From NCBI GenBank assembly GCA_024636975.1, contig JAGXGA010000047.1:62001-126000 (forward strand): DNA of 64,000 bases, read 5' to 3'. Positions 27,290-31,447 of this stretch are shown here, piece after piece. Under the pieces are notes generated by a model. That model searched no databases, was not told the DNA's origin, and worked only from the letters and a program-made list of their open reading frames with translations. This DNA comes from Mariniphaga sp. (GTDB taxonomy: Bacteria; Bacteroidota; Bacteroidia; Bacteroidales; Prolixibacteraceae). How positions within the stretch are numbered: position 1 is the first letter of the stretch; each line of letters begins with the position of its first letter. A program made the position numbers and the translations under genes.

Positions 27290-28699
27290 TTATTGCAGGG
27301 CAAAATTAATTGGAACCGTGTAGCTGACATTCACCGGCTCTCCCCTTTGAACACCCGGTTTCCAGGCAGGCAGGCTGTTAACTACCCTTAAAGCTTCACG
27401 ATCGAGCGAAGGATCAACACCACGTGCGATTTTTGTGTTAACAATATTGCCTTCCTTATCGACCACGAATGTAACATATACCCTTCCCTGTATGCCTTCC
27501 TTTTGTGCCGATTCAGGATATTTAATATTATTGGCTATGTACTTTCTAAGCGCATATTCCCCTCCGGGAAACTCAGGCATCGATTCCACTATGAAGAAAA
27601 TCTCTTCATCTTCATCCAGCATTTTGGGCAGAGCTTTTTTTACAAGGATTAGATTGCCTGTGCTGTCTGTTTGGACATCAAATTCCCTGCTGTCCGCCAT
27701 CATCTTATGCATCCGTTCCAGATCGGCAAAATCGCCTTCAACCTTAATTTTTGAGTCATCAATGAAGGTAAGGCTCATTTCCTCAACCTGGTTTAGGGGT
27801 TCTACCTCCTGAACTTCCTTTTGTTCGCATGCAAATGCAATAATTAAAGCAGCAGCCGTAAATAGTCCTAACACTATTTTAGCTGTGGCGGTTTTTGAAG
27901 ATTTTATTTTTGACATCATTTTAATTCGTTTTTTTATTAAAGAGTAATTGAAATTGTTGGCTATATCCAGATGCCCGCCGGCAAACTGGTTTAACAACAG
28001 TTTTTTGTAATAACCCCGGTTAACACCGGAAGCCAGAACTGCCTGGTCGGCCAGGAATTCATGGTTTTCGCGAACAGCCCTGCGAAGCATCCAGATAAAT
28101 GGGTTAAACCACTGAAATGCAGTAAGCAGTTCCAGGATTAATACATCAAAAGTATGCCCCTGCTTTATATGCTCCATTTCATGGGCCATCATCCGGTCGT
28201 AACCCTCGGTATTCTGCATTGGCCTGCTGACAAACATGTAATTTAAAAATGAATAGGGACTGCAATCCTTTTCAAGGAAAACAAGCTTCACCCCGTTGTA
28301 TTTCTGACCTTGGTTTTTGTAGATAATTATTCCTACCTGTATAACTCTGAAAAGAAATCTTCCAAGGAAAAAAACAAGGCCTGCCGAATAAATCCAGATA
28401 AGCATTGCTGTAGAAAGCACAGCCTGTTCAACCGATACCGACAGGTCCTGCCCATATACAGTGACTGCCTCCATTAAATTCCGATAGGGTGTAACAGTTA
28501 TTTCAGAAAGCATAACCGACTCCGGCTCATAAATTCTGAATTTTATAAAAGGGAGAATAACAGAAAAAAAGAGCGACCCCAGCAAAAACATGCGGTTCAA
28601 TTTAAAGAAAGTTTCCTTTCGCAGAAAAACCACATATATTGTAGCCAGTAAAGACAAGCTTACAGCTGATTCAAGAATAAAATTTACAGTTCCGTTCAT
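27290..28699 (-). CDS. M56 (BlaR1-type) membrane metallopeptidase with C-terminal TonB domain
   Basis: This 469-residue protein has N-terminal membrane helices (residues ~5-26, 37-52, 96-120) around a BlaR1-type peptidase domain with zinc motif HEMEH (173-177, context RMMAHEMEHIKQGH) and a further E/D..AD segment (RENHEFLADQAVL). A membrane segment near 270-290 (AKIVLGLFTAAALIIAFAC) leads to an extracytoplasmic tail ending in a TonB C-terminal-like domain (about 375-469: MPEFPGGEYALRKYIANNI...EGIQGRVYVTFVVD...). With the BlaI-like repressor 19 bp upstream this is a blaI-blaR1-type pair in which the beta-lactam sensor domain is replaced by a TonB-like one. The signal sensed is unknown. Confidence 0.87.
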   Translation of the reverse strand: MNGTVNFILESAVSLSLLATIYVVFLRKETFFKLNRMFLLGSLFFSVILPFIKFRIYEPESVMLSEITVTPYRNLMEAVTVYGQDLSVSVEQAVLSTAMLIWIYSAGLVFFLGRFLFRVIQVGIIIYKNQGQKYNGVKLVFLEKDCSPYSFLNYMFVSRPMQNTEGYDRMMAHEMEHIKQGHTFDVLILELLTAFQWFNPFIWMLRRAVRENHEFLADQAVLASGVNRGYYKKLLLNQFAGGHLDIANNFNYSLIKKRIKMMSKIKSSKTATAKIVLGLFTAAALIIAFACEQKEVQEVEPLNQVEEMSLTFIDDSKIKVEGDFADLERMHKMMADSREFDVQTDSTGNLILVKKALPKMLDEDEEIFFIVESMPEFPGGEYALRKYIANNIKYPESAQKEGIQGRVYVTFVVDKEGNIVNTKIARGVDPSLDREALRVVNSLPAWKPGVQRGEPVNVSYTVPINFALQ

Positions 28700-28718: not shown

Positions 28719-29108
28719 TTATACTTTGTTATCACCCTCATTTTCATCTTCAAGATCACGCTTTACATCCTGAATAAGTTCATCCAGATCAGTAAGGCTC
28801 ATATTATCATCTTTGGCAAAAAATGAAACCATTTCCCTGAATGACCCACTGAAGTAATTGCGCATAAAATTTCGCATATATGATCGGGTATAAGTTTCCC
28901 TTGAAACGATGGGGAAATATTCATGCGTTTTGCCATAGGCATTGTGATCAACAAATCCTTTCTTTTCGAGTATGCGTACAATTGTAGAAACTGTATTGTA
29001 TGCAGGTTTTGGGTCAGGCATTTCATCAATCACATCTTTTACAAACCCTTTATCCAGTTTCCAGAGGATCTGCATAACCTGTTCTTCAGCTTTCGTTAAT
29101 TCTTTCAT
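28719..29108 (-). CDS. BlaI/MecI/CopY-family transcriptional repressor
   Basis: This 129-residue winged-helix repressor has the family pattern LTKAEEQVMQILWKLDKGFV...PAYNTVSTIVRILEKKGFVDH (recognition helix around the TVSTIVRIL run), then a dimerisation tail. Such repressors are cleaved after the partner M56 peptidase is activated. ATG 29108 is preferred over GTG 29138 because an A/G-rich stretch (AAGGGGAAA) sits directly before it. A promoter (-33 at 29170-29173, -7 CATATTTG at 29143-29150) precedes it. Four AACTA-N6-TAGTT dyads nearby are the likely targets. Confidence 0.92.
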   Translation of the reverse strand: MKELTKAEEQVMQILWKLDKGFVKDVIDEMPDPKPAYNTVSTIVRILEKKGFVDHNAYGKTHEYFPIVSRETYTRSYMRNFMRNYFSGSFREMVSFFAKDDNMSLTDLDELIQDVKRDLEDENEGDNKV

Positions 29109-29174: not shown

Positions 29175-29212
29175 ATCGTGCCTGTAACTATCAATTTAGT
29201 TACAGGACGATT
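29175..29212 (-). terminator. Terminator of the tonB-like gene, containing a BlaI-type dyad
   Basis: Arms AATCGT-g-CCTGTAACT and AGTTACAGGACGATT form a 15-bp stem with one bulged base and an 8-nt loop. On the minus strand a TTTTTGTTGTT tract follows. It starts 11 bp after the stop at 29224. The loop-side part of the stem contains AACTA-N6-TAGTT (29186-29201), so the element may be both terminator and operator. Confidence 0.7.
29186..29201. promoter_or_regulatory. BlaI-type operator candidate 1 (AACTA-N6-TAGTT)
   Basis: AACTATCAATTTAGTT lies 12 bp upstream of the putative blaI -33 box and inside the tonB-like gene's terminator stem. It shares its arms and 6-bp spacer with the three dyads at 29698, 29718 and 29779. 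Confidence 0.5.
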
Positions 29213-29223
29213 GTTTTAGTTAA

Positions 29224-29640
29224 CTATTCTTTTTCCTTTGAATCAAGTTTAAACTGAACAGGAATGGTAAACCTTACATTAACCACTTTCCCATCTTCTT
29301 TTCCGGGAGTCCAGACAGGCATCAAATCAACAACACGCAGTGCCTCTTCATCAAGAGCAGTATGAACCCCCCTTGCAACTTCGGCATCAATTACTTCACC
29401 ATTTTTGTTCACTGTGAAGGAAATAAATACCTTACCCTGAATTCCTTCTTTTTTAGCCTCTTCAGGGTACGATACATTTTCAATAATAAATGCCTTCAGT
29501 TTTTCAATTCCGCCAGGATACTCCGGCATCTGATCCACCTCATTGTAAACCTTTTCTTCAGCATTCTCCTGCCCCATTGCAGGCATGTGAAGTAACAGTC
29601 CCAAAATAACAATCGGAAATAACCACTTTAACGTTTTCAT
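29224..29640 (-). CDS. Exported TonB C-terminal domain protein, paralogue of the M56 sensor tail
   Basis: This 138-residue protein has a signal peptide (MKTLKWLFPIVILGLLLHMPAMGQ) followed by one TonB C-terminal-like domain: MPEYPGGIEKLKAFIIENVSYP, EGIQGKVFISFTVNKNGE, ALDEEALRVVDLMPVWTPG. The same blocks, in the same order, form the tail of the M56 protein at 27290-28699. It lacks the usual TonB membrane helix and proline-rich spacer, so it is unlikely to energise transport by itself. It has its own promoter with BlaI-type dyads and a terminator, so it is probably regulated together with blaI. A decoy or signalling partner of the M56 sensor is an inference. Confidence 0.82.
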   Translation of the reverse strand: MKTLKWLFPIVILGLLLHMPAMGQENAEEKVYNEVDQMPEYPGGIEKLKAFIIENVSYPEEAKKEGIQGKVFISFTVNKNGEVIDAEVARGVHTALDEEALRVVDLMPVWTPGKEDGKVVNVRFTIPVQFKLDSKEKE

Positions 29641-29688
29641 TTTTCAGTTTTTTTTAAATGAATAATCTTTTGTATTGGATATCCATTA

Positions 29689-29719
29689 CAAATATACAAC
29701 TAATAATTTAGTTTACAAA
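29689..29719 (-). promoter_or_regulatory. Promoter of the tonB-like gene (TTTG-N19-TATATTTG)
   Basis: On the minus strand, TTTG (29716-29719) and TATATTTG (29689-29696) are separated by 19 bp, the best match to the Bacteroidota promoter consensus in this window. The -7 box ends 48 bp before ATG 29640. Confidence 0.65.
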
Positions 29720-29733
29720 CTAATTAATTAGTT
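29698..29733. promoter_or_regulatory. BlaI-type operator candidates 2 and 3 within the tonB-like promoter
   Basis: Dyad 2, AACTAATAATTTAGTT (29698-29713), fills the space between the -7 and -33 boxes. Dyad 3, AACTAATTAATTAGTT (29718-29733), is a perfect palindrome overlapping the -33 box. Their centres are 20 bp apart, close to two helical turns, fitting two repressor dimers on the same face of the DNA. Occupancy would block RNA polymerase. Confidence 0.6.
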
Positions 29734-29778
29734 ATATTAAATATTTTATATAAAAATCTGATTTACTTCTTATTATAA

Positions 29779-29794
29779 AACTAAAATATTAGTT
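29779..29794. promoter_or_regulatory. BlaI-type operator candidate 4
   Basis: AACTAAAATATTAGTT has the same arms and spacer as the others. It lies 61 bp further upstream of dyad 3, between the tonB-like gene and the end of hipA. It may be an auxiliary site. Confidence 0.4.
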
Positions 29795-29930: not shown

Positions 29931-31166
29931 TCAATTAGACTTTTCAATGTTGTTTAGAGAAGATTGTATGTTTTTAATAGTTTCTGATCTGATATTAAAT
30001 TTTTTTGCAATACTACTCCATTCGGCAATCGCACTTCTTACTTCGTCAATTATTATTGCACCATCTTTTAACCCAAAGTGGTTAGCCAATTTCAAAAGAT
30101 GCTTTTTACCCGGGTTTTTACTTTCACCTGCAACCATTGTACTATGAAATCCATATGAAGAGTAAGAAAAAGTAAGGTCATAAGCCGGTGCAAGTTGCCA
30201 CTCTCCATTTAAATTCATTAGAAAAGAAAAATTTTTGCTATGGTCATCACGATTATGGCTAAATACATTAAATGCAGCTATACGTAATACTTTTTTATAT
30301 GCATTTACGTTTCTTTCCAGGCGAAATGCACAGTCCATTAAATGTCCATAGTCCATCGTACTTGCTCTAAAGTTGTCATGCATCAGGCCTGAAGCAGTAT
30401 GAACGTGTAATCTTGTATTATCTGACCTGTCAAATCTTTTGGTACCAAAATAGACTTTACCGGATTTTCCTTCAAAGAATTTGCAAACACTCATATCGAT
30501 TCCTGCTTTTATCGCCATTTCGTGGTAAGCGTATTCAATTTTAGCAATTTCAGGATTGTCGGATGATGATGGAAATTTAATTATCCAATTTTCAAATCCA
30601 TTTGGAAGCTCTTCATCTCCATGAATTATTTCCTCATTAACCGGATTGTAAGCCACAAATATTTTAGGCCGTGCACCCCCTGATGAGCCTCCAAGTTTAA
30701 ATAGTTCTTCAATAATTTTCGTACTGGATCCCTGTAAAATTTGTTTCATTTCCCCGGCAATTACATCTAATTCTATCTGAGACAAATGCTTTGTGGCACC
30801 TTCAAACTCAGGTTGGTATATGAGAGCCCCCATTCCTCCTGATCCAACAAAGGCCAACCGATCGAGGGGAGAAATTTTCGAGCTGCTTACTCCTCTGGAA
30901 CTTAAAGTTCTGTCAAGCAGTAAGCGGCCCCAACCATCGGGCAGCGAATCGTTGAAAACTCCAAACAGTCCATCAAAAGGTTCTTTTTGACATGTATTAA
31001 TCTCATTATTAAAGGGAAGTTTTATTGGTGACAGGTTCAAGCCAGAAGCTATAAAATCTGAATTATAACGAAAGTATATCTTTTGTTCCGAGAGTATCAA
31101 TTCGCCAACTTCGTACTTTTGACCTTCAATGTTAAGTGAAACAAATAGTTTATTTATTGTTTCCAT
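29931..31166 (-). CDS. hipA: HipA-family serine/threonine kinase toxin
   Basis: This 411-residue protein has an N-terminal HipA domain (residues 1-110) and a C-terminal kinase-like domain. Visible motifs are FGVFNDSLPDGWGRLLLDR (68-86), a Gly-rich loop GGSSGGARPK (159-168), IIKFPS (195-200), the catalytic loop HNRDDHSKNF (304-313) and the metal-binding APAYDLT (326-332). HipA kinases phosphorylate glutamyl-tRNA synthetase or other targets and stop growth. A conserved serine near residue 147 (GSSTK) may be the autophosphorylation site. The length is somewhat short of E. coli HipA (440). hipB ends 5 bp upstream, so the two form an operon. Confidence 0.9.
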   Translation of the reverse strand: METINKLFVSLNIEGQKYEVGELILSEQKIYFRYNSDFIASGLNLSPIKLPFNNEINTCQKEPFDGLFGVFNDSLPDGWGRLLLDRTLSSRGVSSSKISPLDRLAFVGSGGMGALIYQPEFEGATKHLSQIELDVIAGEMKQILQGSSTKIIEELFKLGGSSGGARPKIFVAYNPVNEEIIHGDEELPNGFENWIIKFPSSSDNPEIAKIEYAYHEMAIKAGIDMSVCKFFEGKSGKVYFGTKRFDRSDNTRLHVHTASGLMHDNFRASTMDYGHLMDCAFRLERNVNAYKKVLRIAAFNVFSHNRDDHSKNFSFLMNLNGEWQLAPAYDLTFSYSSYGFHSTMVAGESKNPGKKHLLKLANHFGLKDGAIIIDEVRSAIAEWSSIAKKFNIRSETIKNIQSSLNNIEKSN

Positions 31167-31171
31167 AGCAT

Positions 31172-31447
31172 TTATTTATTGGTAAAAAGCTTTTCAACCT
31201 CAGTTAAATCATCACCGGATTGAAAGATTGTGTCAAAATCTTTAAGTCGTCCGCTTAAATGAGCAAGTTTAAGAAGAGCTTCAAGTGATATTTTACTTGT
31301 ATTTTCAAAACGCTTCAGACTACCCAATGAAACGCCTGAACGCTCAGCCATTTCTTTCTGCGAAAGGTGAAGTTTTTTGCGTAATAATTTATGTTTTTCA
31401 GCTAATGCCTTACTTACTTCTAAAGGAGTTGGTTCTAAAGAATACAT
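31172..31447 (-). CDS. hipB: HipB-like antitoxin, XRE helix-turn-helix
   Basis: This 91-residue protein has an XRE HTH at about residues 15-70: LAEKHKLLRKKLHLSQKEMAERSGVSLGSLKRFENTSKISLEALLKLA, shown here as a description of the run. HipB neutralises HipA and represses the operon. It is the first gene; hipA follows 5 bp after its stop. Two dyads with AATA centres (31454-31473 and 31495-31514) flank a TATATTTG -7 box (31471-31478), which is what an autoregulated hipBA operon should show. Confidence 0.88.
   Translation of the reverse strand: MYSLEPTPLEVSKALAEKHKLLRKKLHLSQKEMAERSGVSLGSLKRFENTSKISLEALLKLAHLSGRLKDFDTIFQSGDDLTEVEKLFTNK

Follow-up and report, generated by a model that had tools for sequence, protein, structure and literature searches.

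What reads the four copies of the palindrome AACTA-N6-TAGTT that stand around a blaI-like repressor gene and a tonB-like gene in Mariniphaga? A first-pass annotation of the window (the whole stretch of DNA analyzed here, 64,000 nucleotides) had proposed that they are the operator of the BlaI-like repressor encoded at 28719-29108, and the positions that it gave for the four sites were all exact. The features of the locus, following the operon from its upstream end, are the following.

29779 to 29794, no strand: O3, putative upstream operator, AACTAAAATATTAGTT, exact match
29718 to 29733, no strand: O2, putative distal operator of a tandem pair, AACTAATTAATTAGTT, exact match
29716 to 29719, minus strand: -33 box TTTG of the tonB promoter, read from the sequence
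29715 to 29697, minus strand: 19-bp promoter spacer, read from the sequence
29698 to 29713, no strand: O1, putative proximal operator, AACTAATAATTTAGTT, inside the 19-bp promoter spacer, exact match
29689 to 29696, minus strand: -7 box TATATTTG of the tonB promoter, read from the sequence
29224 to 29640, minus strand: tonB-like gene, 138 aa, TonB_C domain (Pfam PF03544, E 1.6e-21; TIGR01352)
29181 to 29206, no strand: perfect hairpin around O4, 10-bp stem, terminator-like on both strands (z-score -6.85)
29186 to 29201, no strand: O4, putative internal operator between tonB and blaI, AACTATCAATTTAGTT, exact match
28719 to 29108, minus strand: blaI, repressor of the Penicillinase_R family, 129 aa (PF03965, E 1.2e-32)
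27290 to 28699, minus strand: M56 metallopeptidase, BlaR1-like, 469 aa, with a C-terminal TonB_C (PF05569, E 2.2e-11; PF03544, E 1.7e-21)

The pattern is rare. In 100 dinucleotide-preserving shuffles it appeared on average 0.04 times per window, at most once and never four times, even less than the one site or fewer that had been estimated by hand, and allowing one mismatch added no further copy in the window. The genome (5,762,711 bases in 67 contigs) holds five copies in total. Four of them are at the blaI locus, so the motif is not equally frequent at random places, and the fifth (position 28560 of contig C17) falls within a 443-aa ORF resembling, in our reading, a peptidyl-prolyl isomerase. 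The regulon looks local, consisting of the tonB-blaI-M56 operon and not of scattered TonB genes. A wide TonB regulon was considered and rejected, the only other site of this genome being within an ORF and the sites off the blaI locus in the five relatives scanned being scattered and mostly single. In one relative (G012) two contigs each carry two copies 194 bp apart. Several extra copies in this relative, on its contigs C31, C46, C50 and C122, are near-copies of one sequence, AACTACCTGAGTAGTT, that looks like a dispersed repeat, not a regulon.

The repressor scored 113 bits against PF03965 (cut-off 22.6), aligned with MecI (1okr and others, E 1.3e-11) and has A36-Y-N-T-V-S-T-I-V-R as recognition helix; a structure prediction made with no alignment gave a mean pLDDT of 50.9 and was not used as evidence. 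The M56 protein reached 43.9 bits against PF05569 (cut-off 31), with HEMEH as its HExxH motif at residues 173-177, and 35.2 of the 400 bits of the BlaR1 equivalog. No penicillin-sensor domain was detected on it with Pfam at E 0.001 or with NCBIfam, which found M56 and TonB_C alone. MecI is cleaved between Asn and Phe according to the excerpt of PMC5341023, and this place (Asn101-Phe102) aligns with S95-F96-F97 of the window BlaI, where the Asn is not kept. The start of the tonB-like protein resembles, in our reading, a signal peptide. Directly upstream of the tonB promoter there is a hipBA-like pair (29931-31447, minus strand), made up of a hipA-like kinase gene and a small HTH gene that precedes it. 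The best matches among named genomes were to Maribellus, Draconibacterium and other Prolixibacteraceae (Bacteroidota), in a list that may leave out the record of the window itself.

Of the 80 named relatives, 71 carry the palindrome at most 350 bp before blaI, and in 78 of the 80 an M56 gene follows blaI directly. When the upstream regions of these 80 loci were taken together (at most 1,300 bp each), we found 177 sites in 101,473 bp against 26 in the other 800,001 bp, and 18 of these 26 belonged to clusters of three that lie in the same operon at a greater distance upstream (L203, L205-L209). Control stretches taken elsewhere in the same loci had a site in 7 of 3,177 cases when chosen at random and in 19 of 1,291 (overlapping) when AT-rich. 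In the 30 best orthologue loci, own included (60 genomes searched), a perfect site precedes blaI in 28; of the two exceptions, L011 carries two sites with one mismatch each, and L036 offers hardly any DNA upstream. Speaking against the proposal, a perfect site within 250 bp was lacking in 9 of the 79 named BlaIs with the helix type of the window and in 9 of the 54 from the order-level set. Among the 36 genes in total with a predicted but missing site, nine remained for which no site was found either by allowing one mismatch or by looking for a perfect copy at a greater distance. Conservation upstream of orthologues and rarity at random places, both expected of the proposed operator, were found.

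Could such sites be chance, or conserved low-complexity AT-rich DNA? The upstream regions are AT-rich (mean GC 34%), but the expectation of 0.04 copies per window, the small share of shuffled upstreams with a qualifying spacer-6 site (0.7% of 5,500) and the fact that the half-sites are conserved and the DNA between operators hardly so leave this reading a negligible probability. Chance origin was rejected on the shuffles, the genome count and the control stretches. Alternatively, the sites might be read by another regulator of the locus, such as the product of the small HTH gene in the hipAB-like pair (29931-31447), which lies directly upstream; HipB-type proteins do bind palindromes. We consider this very improbable, given the presence of the site upstream of blaI in the 71 of 80 named relatives and the change of site type with the BlaI clade, including the sister BlaI loci of the same genome. 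The four sites are thus very probably the operators of the neighboring BlaI, as judged from the sequence comparison. Rarity elsewhere in the genome and conservation before orthologues support the original proposal, and the comparison itself shows where the sites lie, that they are conserved and overlap the promoter, that they go together with blaI and M56, and that their type is specific to the clade. We hold with high confidence the whole explanation, that the BlaI encoded at 28719-29108 would repress tonB-blaI-M56 through these four operators until the M56 protein receives its signal.

The layout of the tonB promoter is consistent with this role. Its boxes are of the TTTG / TAnnTTTG type, which we take to be the Bacteroidota promoter consensus. 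Two of the sites had been described as covering the best promoter of the window. The promoter is as described and the site at 29698 lies wholly in its spacer, but the site at 29718 overlaps it by two bases, at the start of TTTG. The place of O1 relative to the -7 box is the same in relatives. Among 54 tandem pairs of the order-level set (from 38 loci, AACTG pairs included), TAnnTTTG starts exactly 1 base past the second operator in 31; in another 7, which belong to triple arrays, it starts at +21. TTTG at the expected gap was found in only 17 of the 54, which counts against the explanation. With the -7 box directly after the second operator in relatives, the operator itself is the promoter spacer. 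The start-to-start distance of neighboring AACTA sites was mainly 20 bp (104 of 117 among the eight commonest values listed). In a footprint of 13 promoters, that of the window included, all chosen for having a tandem pair with a further site 50-80 bp ahead of it, TAnnTTTG was present in 13 and TTTG in 12; O3 was 61-64 bp from the pair, with almost no conserved base in the 45-48 bp between. Operators and promoter boxes are kept and the intervening DNA changes. The distance from O3 to the pair, near six helical turns, hints at a contact between bound dimers.

From the known BlaI/MecI systems we infer binding, repression, cleavage and induction as follows. A BlaI dimer would read each AACTA half-site with its recognition helix. 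On the tonB promoter, two side-by-side dimers, 20 bp apart, would occupy both the -33 box and the spacer and thereby deny access to RNA polymerase. About 61 bp upstream of them a third dimer would be bound, and a second start before blaI would be under the control of a fourth. On a signal, the M56 membrane protease would cut BlaI, as BlaR1 and MecR1 do with their repressors, and the tonB-blaI-M56 operon would be turned on, its own repressor included. With a clear operator and such a precise promoter layout, both the regulon and the signal are directly testable by a reporter.

The internal site, O4, requires separate consideration. Its distance to the blaI start codon is 77 bp, and it is enclosed in the hairpin at 29181-29206, a structure that the first-pass annotation did not mention. 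Most near relatives have one or two operators about 60-95 bp before blaI, some of them with one mismatch, and a T-run ending in TTTG shortly past the internal operator; L010 has no operator at this place. We read O4 as the operator of a second start for blaI-M56, and its hairpin may in addition mark where the tonB transcript ends. O4 could instead be mainly the terminator of tonB, with only the three upstream sites as operators, as the 10-bp stem and the T-rich tail on both strands might indicate. This seems unlikely, as L009, L012 and L013 retain an AACTA site or pair at the O4 place without the long stem, and L011, L205, L206 and L208 retain the pair with its arms altered to ACCTA/TAGGT, one mismatch per site in most. 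The reading of the 29186 site as a terminator only was rejected, relatives keeping the operator without the long stem. It is possible that O4 is operator and terminator at once. The altered arms are the outer ones of the internal pair, and are found in the same register about 60-80 bp upstream of blaI in L011 and L205-L208, which are Draconibacterium- and Maribellus-like.

How do these sites relate to the known operators of the family? The first-pass annotation had regarded them as different from the textbook BlaI/MecI site, and with respect to the core this is so: TACA-NN-TGTA is in none of the four, and none of the seven copies that the window does have coincides with them, the closest being within blaI at 28977. 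The mec operator, TACTACATATGTAGTA, contains ACTA-N6-TAGT in the same register. With respect to the outer positions, however, the difference does not hold. In the bla/mec consensus of Staphylococcus and relatives, [A/G]NATTACA[A/T]NTGTA[A/G][T/G]NT, as excerpted from PMC5341023, the outer A(-7), T(-5) and A(-4) are also those of the AACTA sites when both are aligned by their centers. Repressor family, two-half-site palindrome, promoter overlap and control of the own operon also appear, from the sequence, to be shared with bla/mec. In contrast, the inner positions here do not retain the C and A of TACA (A 76%, A 42% and A 41% over 305 sites), the window system has one more fixed A on the outer side and tandem pairs at 20 bp, and its operon has no beta-lactamase or PBP-type gene among its three genes.

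Besides, ACTAT-type half-sites of BlaI had already been published for Clostridium thermocellum. The excerpts of PMC8457756 give GACTAT and GTCTAT for BlaI_1845 and BlaI_0696, by DAP-seq and EMSA, with two pairs of inverted repeats before the own blaI-blaR1 operon and tiny regulons. There, GTCTAT five bases apart is equivalent to a 5-base half-site with spacer 7, like the N7 class of Bacteroidota described below. Those repressors belong to another phylum, have G and not A as first base and were connected by the authors with a response to beta-lactams. The cop boxes of CopY/CopR, related winged-helix repressors, are also 16-base palindromes (RNYKACANNTGTMRNY), but in the excerpts of PMC7253601 they keep the ACA core and are metal-controlled. 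The window BlaI scored 45.3 bits against the CopY equivalog TIGR02698, far below its cut-off of 121.95. In its excerpted part, PMC7253601 calls for a re-examination of old TACA/TGTA-type sites. Among the top matches listed from the open-access literature there was no paper on Bacteroidota BlaI operators, and PMC3878776, on Bacteroides regulons, makes no mention of BlaI, MecI, M56 or penicillin. Given the outer fit with bla/mec and the Clostridium precedent, what is new here is the different half-site, its phylum-wide variants and the precise promoter layout. The assumption that all BlaI-type repressors read TACA/TGTA needs correction, and the excerpts of PMC8457756 already contain exceptions in Clostridium.

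The variants are apparent within the same genome, which has in total three BlaIs, each followed by an M56 gene. The half-sites of the other two are related, AACTG and TACTA: the BlaI on contig C50 has AACTGATAATTCAGTT, AACTGAAAAAATAGTT and AACTGAAAAAACAGTT upstream and that on contig C38 has TACTATATTTGTAGTA and CACTATAAAAATAGTA. The M56 protein of C38 combines M56, a carboxypeptidase-regulatory-like domain and TonB_C. That of C50 (L006:4887-7229, minus strand) has M56, carboxypeptidase-regulatory-like, TonB-dependent-receptor plug and TonB_C domains in one chain. PF03965 was found in 86 of the 148 Bacteroidota genomes searched.

When the DNA upstream of 108 order-level BlaI rows (L036 and L112 still included) was searched in an unbiased way for 5-bp inverted repeats, the counts peaked at spacer 6 (276, with AACTA the commonest, 82), followed by spacer 4 (213) and by 81-135 for the other spacers. 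The second place of spacer 4 comes from reading the same sites plus the 4-bp gaps between them. The 89 BlaIs from outside the order peaked again at spacer 6 (195), with 138 for spacer 4 and 61-107 for the others shown. Over the 108 rows and the 89 outside, half-site type tracks the BlaI clade, and the Bacteroidota clades have AACTA, TACTA, GACTA, AACTG, TACGA or TTCTA, with spacers N5 and N7 in others. A clade of 14 (L084, L088, L089, L092-L098, L102, L103, L105, L106; helix H-Y/F-N-T-x-S-T) has AACTA with spacer 7; its tandem sites repeat every 21 bp and not every 20, which leaves 4 bp between neighbors as in the N6 class. BlaIs with a PYTTLAS helix (L087, L091, L100, L104, L173, L200) have no called N6 or N7 site, and five of these six have TACGA-N5-TCGTA. 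One clade does have the TACA core, as TTCTACA-NN-TGTAGAA (inner C 93%, A 93%, 8 sites).

Half-site type could also be related to residues of the recognition helix. Tyr37-Ser41-Thr42 goes with AACTA, Tyr37-Ala/Met41-Thr42 with TACTA, Arg37-Ser41 with GACTA, Ser41-Ser42 with AACTG, Leu41-Lys42 with TACGA, and the absence of Tyr37 with TTCTA. In the held-out phylum set of 89 BlaIs (29 best loci and another 60 drawn evenly from at least 118 other places), 58 of 58 agreed where there were both prediction and site, with 11 lacking a site and 20 a prediction. The Met41 rule, which accounts for 28 of these 58, was added after those sequences had been seen, so the test of prior rules amounts to 30 of 30, all BlaIs sharing ancestry with the training clades. 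Among the 106 BlaIs of the order-level set, 79 of 81 agreed (12 of them with spacer 7) and 2 disagreed, 16 having no site and 9 no prediction. The 80 of the named set, which overlaps the order-level set in species and is not independent of it, gave 70 of 70, with 9 lacking a site and 1 a prediction. L036 (only 13 bp upstream), L112 (the gene of L050 again) and L113 (no BlaI by tblastn) were dropped from these counts, and L001-L003 repeat L006, L007 and L005. The exceptions were L042 (Ser41-Ser42 with AACTA), L083 (Leu41-Ser42, outside the written rule, with AACTA), L187 (Ser41 with TTCTA, without Tyr37) and L050, whose TACGA sites precede a divergent second BlaI with a TACGA-type helix, an explanation found after the fact.

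Among 69 representatives under 70% identity, the columns with most information on base 1 were 45, 41, 44 and 38, and three of them align with MecI residues 50, 46 and 43, DNA-contact candidates in the excerpt of PMC2954202. On the tree, base 1 changed independently twice, G at base 4/5 arose four times, and Tyr37-to-Arg and base 2 changed once each. For the G at base 4/5, three of four independent pairs go with residue 42 (p 0.25); with so few independent changes, a phylogenetic test of single residues is unable to reach 0.05. Columns outside the helix also covary, 77 and 85 with base 1 and 99 with base 4, the last equal to residue 42, as expected from shared descent. With only 1-4 independent changes and equally scoring non-helix columns, we put forward the base-to-residue assignment as a hypothesis.

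In genomes with at least two BlaIs with a called site, all types were different in 32 of 37 (shuffled mean 24.0, maximum 31 in 2,000), in a shuffle that ignores descent, a genome naturally holding one member per clade. The other five (G045, G050, G143, G177, G197) have two BlaIs of the same type, which speaks against strict insulation there. One draft genome of about 450 contigs (G027; 86% complete, 4% contamination) has six BlaIs with six different site types. Apparently, the differing palindromes that related bacteria have for sister repressors keep the switches apart. We see about even chances that the BlaI-operator pairs of Bacteroidota form a family whose members are insulated from one another (AACTA-N6, TACTA-N6, GACTA-N6, AACTG-N6, TACGA-N6, TTCTA-N6, AACTA-N7 and TACGA-N5), with the half-site of each clade set by residues 37, 41 and 42, the spacer by dimer geometry, and each pair wired to an M56 protease of its own with distinct outer domains, like the three of this genome. 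If true, a cell would have several parallel envelope-signal switches without cross-talk, six in G027. The clade-specific sites may amount to a natural recognition code for a repressor fold that is among the best known, and they supply ready-made candidates for orthogonal repressor-operator pairs.

Two variations of the locus were also observed. In some relatives (L203, L205-L209) tblastn gave two separate TonB matches in the stretch from the distal operators to blaI, and the cargo under operator control may grow by duplication. In 21 relatives (L017, L019, L210 and L217 among them) there are two operator clusters 86-193 bp apart, about 60-260 bp upstream of blaI. The gap between the clusters contains no long ORF shared by the 21, and they may represent either two tandem promoters or the place of a lost cargo gene.
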